Assembly (NCBI GenBank): GCA_017442085.1
Contig: JAFSAW010000063.1
Coordinates: 1-48,962, forward strand
Source of the DNA: Oscillospiraceae bacterium
Lineage (GTDB): Bacteria > Bacillota > Clostridia > Oscillospirales > Ruminococcaceae
Length of the DNA stretch: 48,962 nt
Direction: 5' to 3'
Every line of letters starts with the position of its first letter. Within the stretch, counting starts at the first letter, position 1. Below the pieces are notes generated by a model. That model did no database searches, was not told the DNA's origin, and worked only from the letters and a program-made list of their open reading frames with translations. The position numbers were made by a program, and so were the translations under genes. This document shows, one piece after another, positions 32,792 to 42,009 of the stretch.

Positions 32792-32852
32792 AAAGATAAT
32801 AAATTTACATTTTAAAGTTCTCTTTTCCCGTTTGCATTATGGAGGATTTTCG

Positions 32853-33929
32853 ATGAAAAAGATAAAATTATTATTGATTTTACTGTCAGCGGCCGTGATG
32901 TTTTCTGCCTGCAGCAGAACTGCTGAAACACCGTTGCAGAATGAGGTTCAGCCTGCCGAAACTGATGAAATAACCGCTGTGCCTCAGGATACAGATGAAA
33001 ACATATTGGTTGAATCCCAGCAGCCTGTAACTGTAGAAATATCCACAGCAGAAGATTTGGTTAATCTTTCTGCCAACTATATAGCCAGCAATGCCAATGC
33101 AACACAAATAACCTATGTTCTTACAAATGACATTGATATGAGCGGTGTTGAAGGTTTTACTCCTGTTGCCTGTTTCAGCGGTTATGGTGCAGATGATATG
33201 GGCGAAGGCTTTACATCCACCTTTGACGGCCAGGGATATACAATCCGTAACCTTACCATAACATCAGAAGAAAACCAGAGTGCTGTCGGGCTTTTTGCCT
33301 CTGTAGCAAAACCTGGTGTTGTTAAAAATCTTAATCTTGAAAATATATCTGTAAACTCTGTTGAATATCCTGTTGCTTACACCGGCGGCCTTGCAGGTTT
33401 AATTTATGGCACCGTAACCAACTGTAATGTGCAGGGAACTGTAGATGCTTTATCTTCTGCCGGCGGTTTTGCCGGCGATGCCCTTGCCAACGCATACATT
33501 GACAGCTGCACTGCCGACGTTGATATATCCGGGCAAAGCACTATAGGCGGTTTTATCGGTTCTGCCAGCTATAACGCACCGTCATTATCCAACTGTGCTT
33601 CTTTTGGCACAGTTACCGCAAAAAGATATCAGGAGTCAGAATATCAGCTGAATTGTATAGGAGGATTTGTTGGTCTTTCTGTATACGGCAATTTTTACAG
33701 CTGTCATGCCCAAAGCAATCTCGTAATTACCGAAGCTGCAAGATGGGTAGGTTCTTTTGCCGGCAATGTTTTTGATGACAACGTGCTTATTTTTGACTGC
33801 AGCTACAGCCCTGCACATGCAGGAAACTGGGATATCATTGATGCCTTTAACCACAAAAAGACCTATGGCGATTATACACCATACGTTTTTACTGCAGACG
33901 ATAACTATACTGCAGCCACAGCAAAATGA
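32853..33929 (+). CDS. surface lipoprotein with GLUG-type beta-helix repeats
   Basis: 358 residues from ATG 32853 (GGAGGAT upstream). The signal peptide ends in the lipobox FSAC, so Cys20 would be lipidated and the protein fixed to the outer face of the membrane. A linker rich in Glu, Thr and Pro (about 21-65) precedes a repeat region: STFDGQGYTIRNLTI, VGLFASV, GGLAGLIYGTVTNCNV, GGFAGDA, GGFIGSA and GGFVGLS. This is the G-G-[LF]-[AIV]-G pattern of GLUG proteins, which form beta helices and often serve in adhesion or proteolysed surface structures. The ligand is unknown. VanW follows after 40 bases. Confidence 0.88.
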   Translation: MKKIKLLLILLSAAVMFSACSRTAETPLQNEVQPAETDEITAVPQDTDENILVESQQPVTVEISTAEDLVNLSANYIASNANATQITYVLTNDIDMSGVEGFTPVACFSGYGADDMGEGFTSTFDGQGYTIRNLTITSEENQSAVGLFASVAKPGVVKNLNLENISVNSVEYPVAYTGGLAGLIYGTVTNCNVQGTVDALSSAGGFAGDALANAYIDSCTADVDISGQSTIGGFIGSASYNAPSLSNCASFGTVTAKRYQESEYQLNCIGGFVGLSVYGNFYSCHAQSNLVITEAARWVGSFAGNVFDDNVLIFDCSYSPAHAGNWDIIDAFNHKKTYGDYTPYVFTADDNYTAATAK

Positions 33930-33969: not shown

Positions 33970-34794
33970 ATGAAACAAAGAAAACTTTTCTGTGAGATTT
34001 CCCCTCTCACCTATAAAATATCTACATACAAGTGCATATCAGTGCGCAAAATACAGGACACATTTTCCAAAGATAAATTTGCAAAGGGCAAAAGCGAAGA
34101 ACTGCTGTCCGTTGTGATATATAAGCACAATTCCCTTATCCGCCGCAGACTTGGCAACGTTGACCTGCAGCTGCAGGAAAACAAGGCAGTTAACCTTGCA
34201 ATAGCTGCACCAAAGGTGGATAAAACTGTTATCCGCCCTGGTGAGACATTCTCCTTCTGGCAGCTGGTGGGCAGCCCAAGTGAAAAAAACGGCTATAAAA
34301 CAGGACTGACCATAAAAGGCGGCAAGCCAAACAAGGATATTGGCGGCGGAATGTGCCAGTTTACCAACCTTATACACTGGATGATACTGCACAGCCCACT
34401 TGACATTGTTGAGCATCATCATCACGACGGAGTAGACCTGTTTCCTGATTTTAACCGCGTTGTCCCCTTTGGCACAGGCACAAGTATATTGTACAATTAC
34501 AAGGATTACCGTTTTAAAAACAATACAAAGCAGCCTTTTCAGCTTGTAGTTTATACCACCGACGAATATCTGTGCGGAGAGCTGAGAACAACACAGCCGC
34601 CGGAATACAGCTATCATATAAAAGCTGAAGAAGAATATTTCAGCCGAGAAAATGGTGTTGTATACCGCAACGGCAAGGTGTACCGCAGTGTTGTGGACAA
34701 GACAAGCGGAAATGTGGTTGAAAAATCACTTATCAAAACCAATCATGCACAGGTTATGTATGATACAAGCAAGCTGGAAATTATTGATAAATAA
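33970..34794 (+). CDS. VanW family protein
   Basis: 274 residues, the same size as VanW of vanB-type clusters and without a signal peptide. The conserved core is seen as VIRPGETFSFWQLVG, GYKTGLTIKGG, DIGGGMCQFTNLIHW, HHHHDGVDLFPD and VPFGTGTSILYNYKDYRF. VanW has no established biochemical function; chromosomal copies occur in many Clostridia without glycopeptide resistance. No vanA/B ligase, vanH or vanX lies in this window, so resistance cannot be inferred. The SD is weak (AGAAAG), which suggests low expression or coupling to the lipoprotein gene before it. Confidence 0.93.
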   Translation: MKQRKLFCEISPLTYKISTYKCISVRKIQDTFSKDKFAKGKSEELLSVVIYKHNSLIRRRLGNVDLQLQENKAVNLAIAAPKVDKTVIRPGETFSFWQLVGSPSEKNGYKTGLTIKGGKPNKDIGGGMCQFTNLIHWMILHSPLDIVEHHHHDGVDLFPDFNRVVPFGTGTSILYNYKDYRFKNNTKQPFQLVVYTTDEYLCGELRTTQPPEYSYHIKAEEEYFSRENGVVYRNGKVYRSVVDKTSGNVVEKSLIKTNHAQVMYDTSKLEIIDK

Positions 34795-38480: not shown

Positions 38481-39239
38481 TTATTGCGGACCGACACTTA
38501 CGTGGATTTCGATAAGAGTGCCTGTAGGAAGTTCAACACCGCCGCCGTGATTCTGCCATATAACTGTACCCGCAGGCTGTTCGTTGGCTGTTTCCACCAC
38601 CTGTACCCTGAGACCTGAGTTTGAAATAAGTCTGCGTGCTTCGGCAACATCCACACCCACAACATTTGGTACAATGCGTGTACGCTGTATTTCTTCCATT
38701 GCAACATAAATTGTTACAACATCACCGCTGTTTACAGTTTCGCCTGCTGCTGGCTCGGTTTTTATAACAAGACCTTCAGGGAAGTCATCTCTTTCTTCCA
38801 TTTTAATATAGATGTCCACACCCATTTCAGAAAGTGCTTTTTCCGCCTGAATTTTAGGCTGTTTAACAAGGTCAGGCATTGTGCCCGTCATAACACCATT
38901 GCTGATTTTAAGTATTACAGTGCTGCTTCTTTTTACTGTTCTTGGTGCAGTTGGCTTCTGTGCAATAACTACATCCTTTTCGTATTCGCTGTTATATACA
39001 TATTCTACTTCATAGTTGAAGTTTTCGTCTGCCATTACCTCACTTGCTGTCATTCCTACAAAGTTTGGCAGACTGATATCCGGCTGATTTGTCAGCAGCG
39101 GATTGTCACTTTTTTCAAGTATATTGTATATAAGCATAACAGCACCCGCAACAGATGCTGCTGCCAGAAAAGCCATAATCGGCAGCACTATTTTTCTTTT
39201 CTTTTTTCTTCTTGGTCTTCTTGTTGTTTTTTCTTCCAT
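38481..39239 (-). CDS. kinase-less PASTA domain protein
   Basis: 252 residues from ATG 39239 (GGTG upstream); a GTG start at 39269 would add ten residues without a better SD. A basic cytoplasmic stub (TTRRPRRKKKRK), one membrane helix (about 17-39), then three extracellular PASTA domains, with ISLPNFVGMTASEV, MPDLVKQPKIQAEKALSE and VPNVVGVDVAEARRLIS. These match the extracellular part of PknB next door, with the same spacing and shared phrases (NPLLTxQPD, EYVYNxxYEKD), so it probably arose by duplication and loss of the kinase domain. PASTA domains bind muropeptides or peptidoglycan. It may compete with or modulate the kinase; that is inference. Confidence 0.9.
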   Translation of the reverse strand: MEEKTTRRPRRKKKRKIVLPIMAFLAAASVAGAVMLIYNILEKSDNPLLTNQPDISLPNFVGMTASEVMADENFNYEVEYVYNSEYEKDVVIAQKPTAPRTVKRSSTVILKISNGVMTGTMPDLVKQPKIQAEKALSEMGVDIYIKMEERDDFPEGLVIKTEPAAGETVNSGDVVTIYVAMEEIQRTRIVPNVVGVDVAEARRLISNSGLRVQVVETANEQPAGTVIWQNHGGGVELPTGTLIEIHVSVGPQ

Positions 39240-39293: not shown

Positions 39294-41276
39294 TTATTCA
39301 TCATCTTTTTCTTCTTCAGGATCATCTGCTGGCTTCTGATTATCCGGTGTTGCTTCCGGCTCCGGTGTTGTTTCTGGCTCCGGTGTTGTTTCCGGCTGCT
39401 GTGTAGGACAGTCTGCCTTGTGGTTTGGCTCGTTTTCACCACACTGGTCACAGGTTGGGTGTGTTGTATGTTCTTTGGAACCGCAAACTTCACAGGTTGG
39501 ATGTTTTGTATGCTCTTCGGAACCGCAAACTTCACAGGTTGGATGTTTTGTGTGCTCTTTGGAACCGCAAACTTCACATCTTGGATGTTCTGTATGTTCA
39601 TCACTGCCGCAGTCCGGGCATTTTGGTTTGCCTGAACTTACAACCAGCACAACTGCACTGCCTGCCGGAACTTCCTCACCGGCTGACGGTGTCTGTGCAA
39701 TAACCGAACCTTCAGGTTCGTAGCTTTCGCTTAAAGTATAGGAGCCTACACGCAGTCCTGCTGCGGAAATGGCCTTGCGCGCTGCAGCAAGATTTTCGCA
39801 GCCTACAACGTTAGGCACTGTACGGTTCTGCAAAGTAGGGTCTACTGCGATATAGATTGTAACAAGACTGCCGCTGCTTACAATTGCACCGTCAGCAGGA
39901 TCTGTGCGCACAACACTGCCGTTTACAACATCTTTTGTTTCTTCTGTTTCAATGGCTATATTTACACCAAGGTCATTCAGGACCTTTTCTGCTTCTGCGC
40001 GTGTGTAATTTCTGAGGTCAGGCATTTCACTGGTCATAACGCCCTTGCTTACCCTTAGCTTGACTGTACTGTTTTTCTTTACAGTTCTCGGTGCTTTAGG
40101 TGTCTGTGAAAATACTATGTCCTTTTCGTAATCTTCATTGTAGACATATTCTATTTCAAATTTGAAATCCTTGTCTGATTTTGCCTGTGTAACCGTCATA
40201 CCTACAAAGCTTGGCAGGTCAACATCAGGCTGTTTTGTAAGCAGAGGGTTGCCGCTGAGTTTAAAGATAAAGTATATACCTACAACTGCACTTATCAGGA
40301 ATGCCGCTGCAAGCCCTGCCATAACCGGCAAAAGCAGCTGCTTACCTTTTTTAAGTTTCACCTTGCCTGCAGGTTTCTTTTTAGGTTCGGTGTTTATTAC
40401 CATTGTTTTTGTCTGTGAAATTTCTTCTTCAGTTTCAAAAACAACAGCAGGGTTTTCACGCACCTTTTTTATATCTCTGCGCATTTCCGCTGCAGACTGG
40501 TAACGTTTTTCAGGGTCTTTTTCAATAGCTTTCATAATAATCTGTTCCAGACCTTTTGGAACATCAGCCACAATTTCACTTACGGGCTGTGCTGACTGTG
40601 AAAGCTGCTGCAAAGCAACAGAAACCGCTGTTTCAGACTGAAACGGCAGTTTGCCTGTTATCATTTCGTACATCATAATACCGATGCTGTATATATCGCT
40701 TCTGCCGTCTGTGCTCTGACCGCGCACCTGTTCAGGGCTGATATAATGTACAGAACCGATTGCCTTGTCGGTAACAGTTCTCTGGCTTGCTGTGGCAAGA
40801 CGTGCAATGCCAAAGTCCATTATTTTAAGTCTGCCGTCACGGGTGAGCATAATATTCTGCGGTTTAAGGTCACGGTGAACAACACCGTTTTCGTGAGCAT
40901 GGCTGAGGGCAGAAAGAATGATATTGGCAAATACCAGAGTATCTTCCCAGGTAAGTTTGCCGCGGTTGTCCATAAATTCTTTAAGTGTGACACCGTCAAT
41001 ATATTCCATAACAATATATTTTTCGCTGTCTGTGATGCTGAAGTCCACCACTTTGATAATACTGTCATGGTTAAGTACGCTTATAGCCTTGCTTTCGTTT
41101 TTAAAACGGCGAACCAGTTCTTCGTTTTCAAAAAACTCTTCCTTGAGAAATTTAACCGCTACCTGCTTGCCGGTCTGTCTGTCTATTGCCTTATACACAT
41201 TGGCCATACCGCCAACACCGATAAGTGATAAAACCTCATAGCGATTGTCAACTATTTTTCCTATATAATTGTCCAT
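39294..41276 (-). CDS. pknB: PASTA Ser/Thr kinase with extracellular Cys/His repeat tail
   Basis: 660 residues. The kinase domain (10-270) has GVGGMANVY, K42, HRDLKPQN (D136), DFG (154-156) and SPEQVRG. After a juxtamembrane part and one membrane helix (about 314-338), three PASTA domains (about 351-411, 417-478, 484-549) face outward and should sense peptidoglycan. Unusually, residues 553-623 then form four and a half 14-residue units of CEVCGSKEHTKHPT type, each with CxxC-x4-HxxH, followed by a Thr/Pro/Glu tail ending in EEEKDDE. The units could bind zinc outside the membrane. Stp, the cognate phosphatase, lies directly upstream. I know of no described kinase with this tail. Confidence 0.96.
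   Translation of the reverse strand: MDNYIGKIVDNRYEVLSLIGVGGMANVYKAIDRQTGKQVAVKFLKEEFFENEELVRRFKNESKAISVLNHDSIIKVVDFSITDSEKYIVMEYIDGVTLKEFMDNRGKLTWEDTLVFANIILSALSHAHENGVVHRDLKPQNIMLTRDGRLKIMDFGIARLATASQRTVTDKAIGSVHYISPEQVRGQSTDGRSDIYSIGIMMYEMITGKLPFQSETAVSVALQQLSQSAQPVSEIVADVPKGLEQIIMKAIEKDPEKRYQSAAEMRRDIKKVRENPAVVFETEEEISQTKTMVINTEPKKKPAGKVKLKKGKQLLLPVMAGLAAAFLISAVVGIYFIFKLSGNPLLTKQPDVDLPSFVGMTVTQAKSDKDFKFEIEYVYNEDYEKDIVFSQTPKAPRTVKKNSTVKLRVSKGVMTSEMPDLRNYTRAEAEKVLNDLGVNIAIETEETKDVVNGSVVRTDPADGAIVSSGSLVTIYIAVDPTLQNRTVPNVVGCENLAAARKAISAAGLRVGSYTLSESYEPEGSVIAQTPSAGEEVPAGSAVVLVVSSGKPKCPDCGSDEHTEHPRCEVCGSKEHTKHPTCEVCGSEEHTKHPTCEVCGSKEHTTHPTCDQCGENEPNHKADCPTQQPETTPEPETTPEPEATPDNQKPADDPEEEKDDE
39451..39618 (-). 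repeat. four 42-bp tandem repeats coding for the CxxC-HxxH units of PknB
   Basis: Units at 39451-39492, 39493-39534, 39535-39576 and 39577-39618. The middle two are nearly identical at the nucleotide level, the first differs at several bases and the fourth is clearly diverged. The unit length is a multiple of three, so changes in copy number keep the kinase frame. A further degenerate unit (CDQCGENEPNHKADC) follows on the C-terminal side. Confidence 0.93.
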
Positions 41277-41286
41277 ATAATACTCC

Positions 41287-42009
41287 TTAAATTGCCAATA
41301 CTACTGCTGTTATATTATCTGTAGCATTATTTTCAAGTGCTTTTCTGATAAGTTTATCAGGCATAGCAAAAACATTGTCTGTGGTAAGCACCTGCACAAT
41401 ATCTGCAGGAGAAACATAGTTTGTAAGGCCGTCTGTTGCACAGAGAATTATATCTCCCTGCATAACCTCAAGTTCGGCAACATCAACATCAATATCTGCA
41501 CCTACCCCAACAGCCCTTGTGATAAGGTTTTTCTGTGGATGATGCAGTGCCTGTTCTGCCGTTATCTGTTTTTTGTCCAGCAGTTCCTGAACAACCGAAT
41601 GGTCTTTTGTTATAAGTGCAAGCATGCCGTCACGCACAATATAAACACGGGAATCCCCTGCGTGATAGACAGTGCACTGATTTTTTTCTATTACAACACC
41701 GGCAACAGTTGTGCCCATACCGTGATATTCCGGCTTTTTGTTGCCCATATTGTAAATTGCGCTGTTGGCATCTTCAATTGCAGACATAACAGCCTTTTCG
41801 TGATTGAAAACCGCACTTTCGTTGTGTACAAACAAAGCATCTTCAATATACTTTGCCAAAACACCGCTTGCAACTTCGCCGCCGTTTACACCGCCCATTC
41901 CGTCGCAAACGAAACCAAAGCTGATGCCGTTGAGCAATCTGCCTGCAATATATTTGTCCTGATTTTCACTTCTTCGGTTGCCTATGTTGGTAGCGCCTGA
42001 AATTTTCAT
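41287..42009 (-). CDS. stp: PP2C-type protein phosphatase
   Basis: 240 residues, the standard length of Stp/PrpC phosphatases that reverse PknB-type phosphorylation. The metal-binding aspartates are seen in FVCDGMGGVNGGE, HAGDSRVYIV, ILCATDGLTNYV and NATDNITAVV. Cytoplasmic. The ATG follows the rlmN stop by a few bases and the kinase follows closely (10 bases), so phosphatase and kinase are made together. Confidence 0.97.
   Translation of the reverse strand: MKISGATNIGNRRSENQDKYIAGRLLNGISFGFVCDGMGGVNGGEVASGVLAKYIEDALFVHNESAVFNHEKAVMSAIEDANSAIYNMGNKKPEYHGMGTTVAGVVIEKNQCTVYHAGDSRVYIVRDGMLALITKDHSVVQELLDKKQITAEQALHHPQKNLITRAVGVGADIDVDVAELEVMQGDIILCATDGLTNYVSPADIVQVLTTDNVFAMPDKLIRKALENNATDNITAVVLAI

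Follow-up and report, generated by a model that had tools for sequence, protein, structure and literature searches.

A PASTA Ser/Thr kinase encoded in the window (the whole stretch of 48,962 nucleotides analyzed here, from an Oscillospiraceae bacterium) ends, outside the membrane, in an array of Cys/His units that probably binds metal, as judged by comparison with related sequences. The kinase is of a known type, and its outer Cys/His tail is a new variant. As the best explanation, we propose that the outer end of a PASTA kinase became a chain of four-ligand metal sites whose loading would affect signaling, a proposal for which we see an even balance of chances. No paper on such a kinase tail was found in the open-licence literature by title or abstract start.

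The kinase, its tail, and its locus

The window protein matches the Stk1-family PASTA kinase model NF033483 over residues 5 to 547 with 522.8 bits, above the curated cutoff of 450, and its translation reads in the order kinase domain, membrane stretch, and PASTA repeats outside the membrane, which places it among the Stk1/PknB PASTA kinases. It shares with Stk1, PknB, PrkC, and StkP the kinase domain, the membrane stretch, the PASTA ectodomain, and a PP2C neighbor but adds the Cys/His array at its outer end (Table 1). The array, at residues 553 to 623 and beyond the three PASTA domains, contains 11 of the 12 Cys residues of the kinase, and its 20 Cys and His residues form five sets of four. 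A sequence-only reading of this DNA had described a PASTA kinase with an extracellular Cys/His repeat tail, and this description is confirmed. The same reading had counted five 14-residue units with CxxC-x4-HxxH spacing, of which four are exact (CX2CX4HX2H) and the fifth, residues 609 to 623, has the form CX2CX6HX3C.

At the DNA level, TRF detected a 42-bp repeat of 3.5 copies at 39448-39596 (score 242, 90% matches, far over the threshold), together with an 18-bp repeat in the acidic end at 39343-39397. Of the four 42-bp repeats first described, not two but three are nearly identical: units 2, 3, and 4 share 38 to 40 of 42 bases with one another, and unit 1 shares only 25 to 27 of 42 bases with them.

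Table 1. Features of the kinase gene, its Cys/His array, and the adjoining genes in the window
Feature	Position	Strand	Basis or remark
PASTA Ser/Thr kinase gene, 660 aa	39294..41276	-	ORF list, translation, NF033483 match
Kinase domain, residues 13-260, HRD and DFG motifs	40497..41240	-	Pfam PF00069; motifs read from translation
Membrane-spanning stretch, about residues 314-338	40263..40337	-	Hydrophobic by eye, no predictor
Three PASTA domains, about residues 345-548	39633..40244	-	PF03793, three matches; outer limits by eye
Unit 1, residues 553-566, CX2CX4HX2H	39579..39620	-	Motif count
Unit 2, residues 567-580, CX2CX4HX2H	39537..39578	-	40/42 bases shared with unit 3
Unit 3, residues 581-594, CX2CX4HX2H	39495..39536	-	Motif count, DNA comparison
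Unit 4, residues 595-608, CX2CX4HX2H	39453..39494	-	38/42 bases shared with units 2 and 3
Terminal unit, residues 609-623, CX2CX6HX3C	39408..39452	-	Equal form in G011 and G004
Pro/Glu-rich acidic end, residues 624-660, 18-bp repeat	39297..39407	-	TRF, translation; weakly constrained
PP2C-type phosphatase gene adjoining the kinase	41287..42009	-	Pfam PP2C
Kinase-less membrane protein, three PASTA domains, without Cys tail	38481..39239	-	Inner ATG taken as start; listed ORF from 39269

Beyond the PP2C gene and the gene for the kinase-less PASTA protein, the flanking genes encode RlmN with RsmB/F in one direction and RsgA with thiamine pyrophosphokinase in the other. The kinase-less protein is 47% identical to residues 300 to 554 of the kinase and may be its decoy or partner; among the matches listed, such a copy appears in 5 of the 16 genomes of the genus (the window's own, G000, and G011, G004, G002, and G014). 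Elsewhere in the window, genes for a VanW-like protein (33970-34794, plus strand) and a GLUG-motif protein (32832-33929, plus strand) lie next to each other.

The window's own genome is a draft of 123 contigs, 83% complete with 6% contamination, and within it a profile of the tail matches this kinase gene alone. It also encodes a second kinase-like protein of 572 aa (L003, on contig C40). Read by eye, this protein has an N-terminal region with a CxxC pair, PASTA-like repeats, an end rich in Thr and Pro, and a kinase-like domain without a visible HRD motif.

Described PASTA kinases had been said to end only in PASTA or Ig-like domains. This is inaccurate, as many of the PASTA kinases that we read from other genera end in Pro- or Ser-rich tails, and PrkC of Clostridioides difficile carries an extra outer segment rich in Ser-Gly-Asn (SGN) (PMC9674922). 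PrkC and the window kinase thus both have an extra low-complexity outer segment, and no metal ligands are stated for that of PrkC.

Distribution of the tail within the genus

The genus was represented by 16 genomes, the window's own and G001 to G015, and the C terminus of the kinase was obtained in 15 of them; in the sixteenth, G006, the kinase ends at a contig end (match 1 to 76). All 15 kinases have the Cys/His tail, in G013 on the second piece of a broken kinase frame. An absence of the units from related strains, which the sequence-only reading had named as speaking against a sensor, is therefore not what these genomes show. When named genomes were scanned with the kinase, 42 loci matched, of which 15 (L040 to L053 and L077, which is cut) are genus-like at 52 to 85% identity. 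The genomes behind these 15 loci are all drafts from uncultured Oscillospiraceae or Clostridia; nine of them are labeled as ruminant gut samples (sheep, goat, roe deer, and water buffalo). Across the family, a search of 297 genomes with a tail profile, which overlooks single units such as that of G033, matched five genomes, all from this one genus out of 126.

Some tails of the genus depart from the window's plan. In L016 and L018 (G009 and G013), HYHGNGTDSG-CPNC repeats take the place of part of the tail; this other kind of four-ligand unit occurs twice in G009 and once in G013. In L012 and L013 (G008 and G005), the array and a Pro-rich linker are followed by about 50 more residues, which resemble a portion of a folded domain.

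The number of units also varies among close relatives. In a tree built from the kinase and PASTA regions, the window groups with G004 and G011 (support 100/100); these nearest kin have four sets of ligands where the window has five, and G007, on a separate branch, has five. The four sets of the nearest kin and the near-identity of units 2 to 4 support the view that the window's lineage gained a unit in frame, with an assembly miscount possible in a draft genome. This comparison of kinase C termini had been suggested as a check at the outset, and it upholds the idea that copy number changes without loss of frame.

Four ligands per unit and their constraint

Cys and His residues were counted from the first CxxC to the end of 20 tails, those of the 15 genus kinases, of the G033 kinase, and of four PASTA-less kinases from other genera. 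In 18 of these tails, the total is divisible by four, and the exceptions, G003 (13) and G355 (5), each have one extra His. When the ligands are grouped into units, a grouping that is our own reading, the tails comprise CCHH, CCHC, and HHCC types: CX2CX4HX2H, CX2CX4HX4H, CX2CX4HX4C (also with one more residue before the His), and CX2CX6HX3C all follow the four-ligand rule, and G009, G013, and G007 have quite different HXHX8CX2C or CXHX8CX2C units. Since duplication of whole units preserves multiples of four, the tails are not independent, and it is the variety of unit forms that is telling. The fourth ligand interchanges between His and Cys, an exchange that, by known zinc chemistry, is compatible with a tetrahedral zinc site but not with a disulfide.

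Among near kin, the ligands also resist replacement. In gap-free codon columns, none of the 16 aligned Cys/His codons is replaced between the window and either G011 or G004, among which there are 5 and 7 silent changes, whereas replacements affect 15/44 and 16/44 of the remaining tail positions (Fisher p 0.006 and 0.003). Between G014 and G002, the corresponding fractions are 0/15 and 19/41 (p 0.0009); between the window and G014 or G002, they are 0/14 in each case against 24/40 and 20/40; and between the window and the more distant G007, they are 2/16 and 22/44. With silent sites near saturation throughout, dN/dS is a rough measure here, at 0.11 to 0.28 for the tail units in four computable pairs (the fifth, the window and G004, being saturated at silent sites), 0.03 to 0.12 for the kinase domain, 0.07 to 0.17 for PASTA, and 0.26 to 1.3 for the acidic end.

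Resemblance to zinc folds

The window protein stays below the cutoff of every Pfam zinc family, its best being DZR_2 (Double zinc ribbon, PF18912) at 18.6 bits against a cutoff of 27, and it has no match to PF00098 (zf-CCHC) up to an E value of 1. Its units have the CX2CX4H core of the CCHC zinc knuckle, as found in retroviral nucleocapsid and AIR2, but depart from the knuckle spacing CX2CX4HX4C by HX2H or X6HX3C and are extracellular and borne on a kinase. The exact spacing occurs in several relatives, for example, G003, G008, and G005, and the zf-CCHC cutoff is passed in one of six relatives scanned (G003, 22.7 against 20.8 bits). A profile built from 13 genus tails matches the solved zinc-knuckle proteins TUT7 (4.5e-5), AIR2 (4.8e-4), and nucleocapsid protein (1.2e-3) and also ribosomal eL37 (5.6e-4) and, weakly, bL32 (0.053).

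The array thus appears to work like a string of small zinc sites whose units, in the window, are not members of the knuckle family. These comparisons point to tetrahedral metal sites, most likely for zinc, rather than a disulfide sensor, and we infer that each unit would bind one metal ion, most likely Zn(II), or about five in the window protein. A haem site was considered and rejected: the haem motif of c-type cytochromes is CXXCH, and the window tail has five CxxC pairs, in none of which the next residue is His.

The unit outside the genus

PASTA kinase loci of other genera were taken from 75 of 80 matching genomes (G022, G039, G079, G091, and G096 were left out); the kinase frame was parsed by script in 72 (including two truncated at a contig end), and the other three were inspected separately. 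The strict unit is present in one of the 75, that of G033, after a PKD-like stretch. The PASTA kinases of L146 (G058) and L155 (G046) end in another Cys/His module, which starts with HEHSY and contains CxxCGA.

In a sample of 361 genomes of the class, a two-unit profile matched six (the window's own, G378, G577, G397, G355, and G649). Five of these carry the unit at the C terminus of a membrane Ser/Thr kinase; the match in G649 is a small zinc-ribbon protein and was set aside. The kinases of G378, G577, G397, and G355 have no PASTA match in the parts scanned and end in 4, 2, 4, and 1 units, respectively. They are 38 to 62% identical to one another over 314 to 739 aligned residues, and compared to the window kinase, they are 25 to 30% identical in the kinase domain and 46 to 66% in tail stretches. 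In their orders, the genomes matched numbered 1/16 (that of G397), 2/28 (that of G577), and 1/1 (that of G378). The next gene in all four loci (L180 to L183) encodes a Cu_amine_oxidN1 protein; WG repeats occur in three of these four neighbors, and a PP2C gene is also near in G577. In the G033 PASTA kinase and the four PASTA-less kinases alike, the strict unit is always at the outer C terminus. Its presence in two kinase families may reflect either transfer between kinase genes or convergence, between which 14 residues cannot distinguish.

Weak profile matches in the class, order, and phylum samples were examined in part. A search of 391 genomes matched nine, namely, the window's own genome, three kinases, and five weaker matches; four of the latter (L085, L086, L088, and L089) are zinc-ribbon or short Cys proteins where visible, L086 and L088 having Cys/His stretches of looser spacing rather than the strict unit, and the motif was not seen in L087. 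A search of 398 genomes matched 24, and the strict unit is absent from the five examined (L091 to L095) of the 23 other than the window's own, L093 having a looser unit in a 122-aa protein. A search of 394 genomes matched two, the second of which (G1324) is a zinc ribbon. Carriage of the tail by phages or plasmids found no support, although the evidence is weak: tblastn of the 75-aa tail against 50,697 phage and 72,556 plasmid records gave no match with the low-complexity filter on, and a forward-strand motif scan of part of each of two weak loci in IMG/VR found no motif.

Possible roles of a probable metal-loaded kinase tip

Most likely, the outer tip of the window kinase would be a metal-loaded array. 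Metal loading may alter the folding or clustering of the ectodomains and so change what the kinase reports on the cell wall. That loading changes signaling at all is a possibility that we rate as somewhat less likely than not. PknG (rubredoxin type, PF16919) is another Ser/Thr kinase of bacteria with a CxxC metal module; it is soluble and without PASTA and has its module on the N-terminal side and inside the cell. WalK of Staphylococcus aureus is, like the window kinase, a Firmicute cell-wall kinase, and its activity is tuned by a four-ligand zinc site; WalK is a histidine kinase, and the site lies in its cytoplasmic PAS domain (PMC6624279). Zinc tuning of a cell-wall kinase in a Firmicute thus has a precedent. 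We know of no sequence relation between the zinc-binding PAS domain and the window tail. A signaling role should not be assumed, because in the assays shown for PrkC, neither phosphorylation nor septal placement required the PASTA domains or the extra outer segment (PMC9674922).

We favor, tentatively, metal-dependent folding or clustering that feeds the kinase over a purely structural or adhesive tip, which we place on the unlikely side. In the latter, zinc would only hold small rigid beads together, and these would bind a wall polymer, a hydrolase, or another protein as partner; metal itself would not be sensed. A structural role is the usual one for zinc knuckles, which agrees with such a tip. 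A further point in its favor is that the hydrolase LytB is reportedly directed by StkP (PMC12077195). A fixed binding face, however, would be expected to look different, as the non-ligand surface residues change fast among near kin and unit types are swapped.

A redox sensor, in which CxxC pairs make and break disulfides, is improbable. Every unit of the window has a CxxC pair, but a sensor of redox state only is not favored because His is kept as strictly as Cys and the number of Cys residues is odd in 9 of 16 tails, to which the interchange of His and Cys at the fourth ligand may be added. For the metal- or redox-sensing module originally envisaged, metal binding draws support from the four ligands per unit, the Cys/His interchange, the ligands unreplaced among near kin, and the knuckle match of G003, whereas a redox reading does not; sensing would be a further step. 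It is quite improbable that the tail serves as a surface metal store or scavenger with the kinase merely as anchor; several sites per molecule in variable number would suit a store, but a low-abundance kinase would be an odd one, and the units in the class sample sit on kinases. Least probable is a functionless decoration from repeat slippage or an effect of draft assembly, which the incomplete, partly contaminated genome and the near-identity of units 2 to 4 might suggest, since the tail recurs in fifteen genus genomes and shows constraint on its ligands even with silent sites close to saturation.

Returning to the metal-loaded array, it is the four ligands per unit, not a surface, that stay the same as units change in type and number, which suggests, with less confidence, that selection keeps metal binding itself. 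In its widest form, which we consider doubtful, the array would be a transferable extracellular zinc-sensing tip on the distantly related PASTA and PASTA-less kinase families, with signaling dependent on outside metal and sensitivity set by the number of 42-bp units. To our knowledge, apart from muropeptides and lipid II, little is known of what bacterial Ser/Thr kinases sense outside the cell. A unit of only 14 residues lends itself to expression and mutagenesis, which opens the question to direct test. Should the tips bind metal and pass this on to the kinase, metal status would feed into the control of the cell wall through the kinase's outer end in these uncultured gut bacteria.
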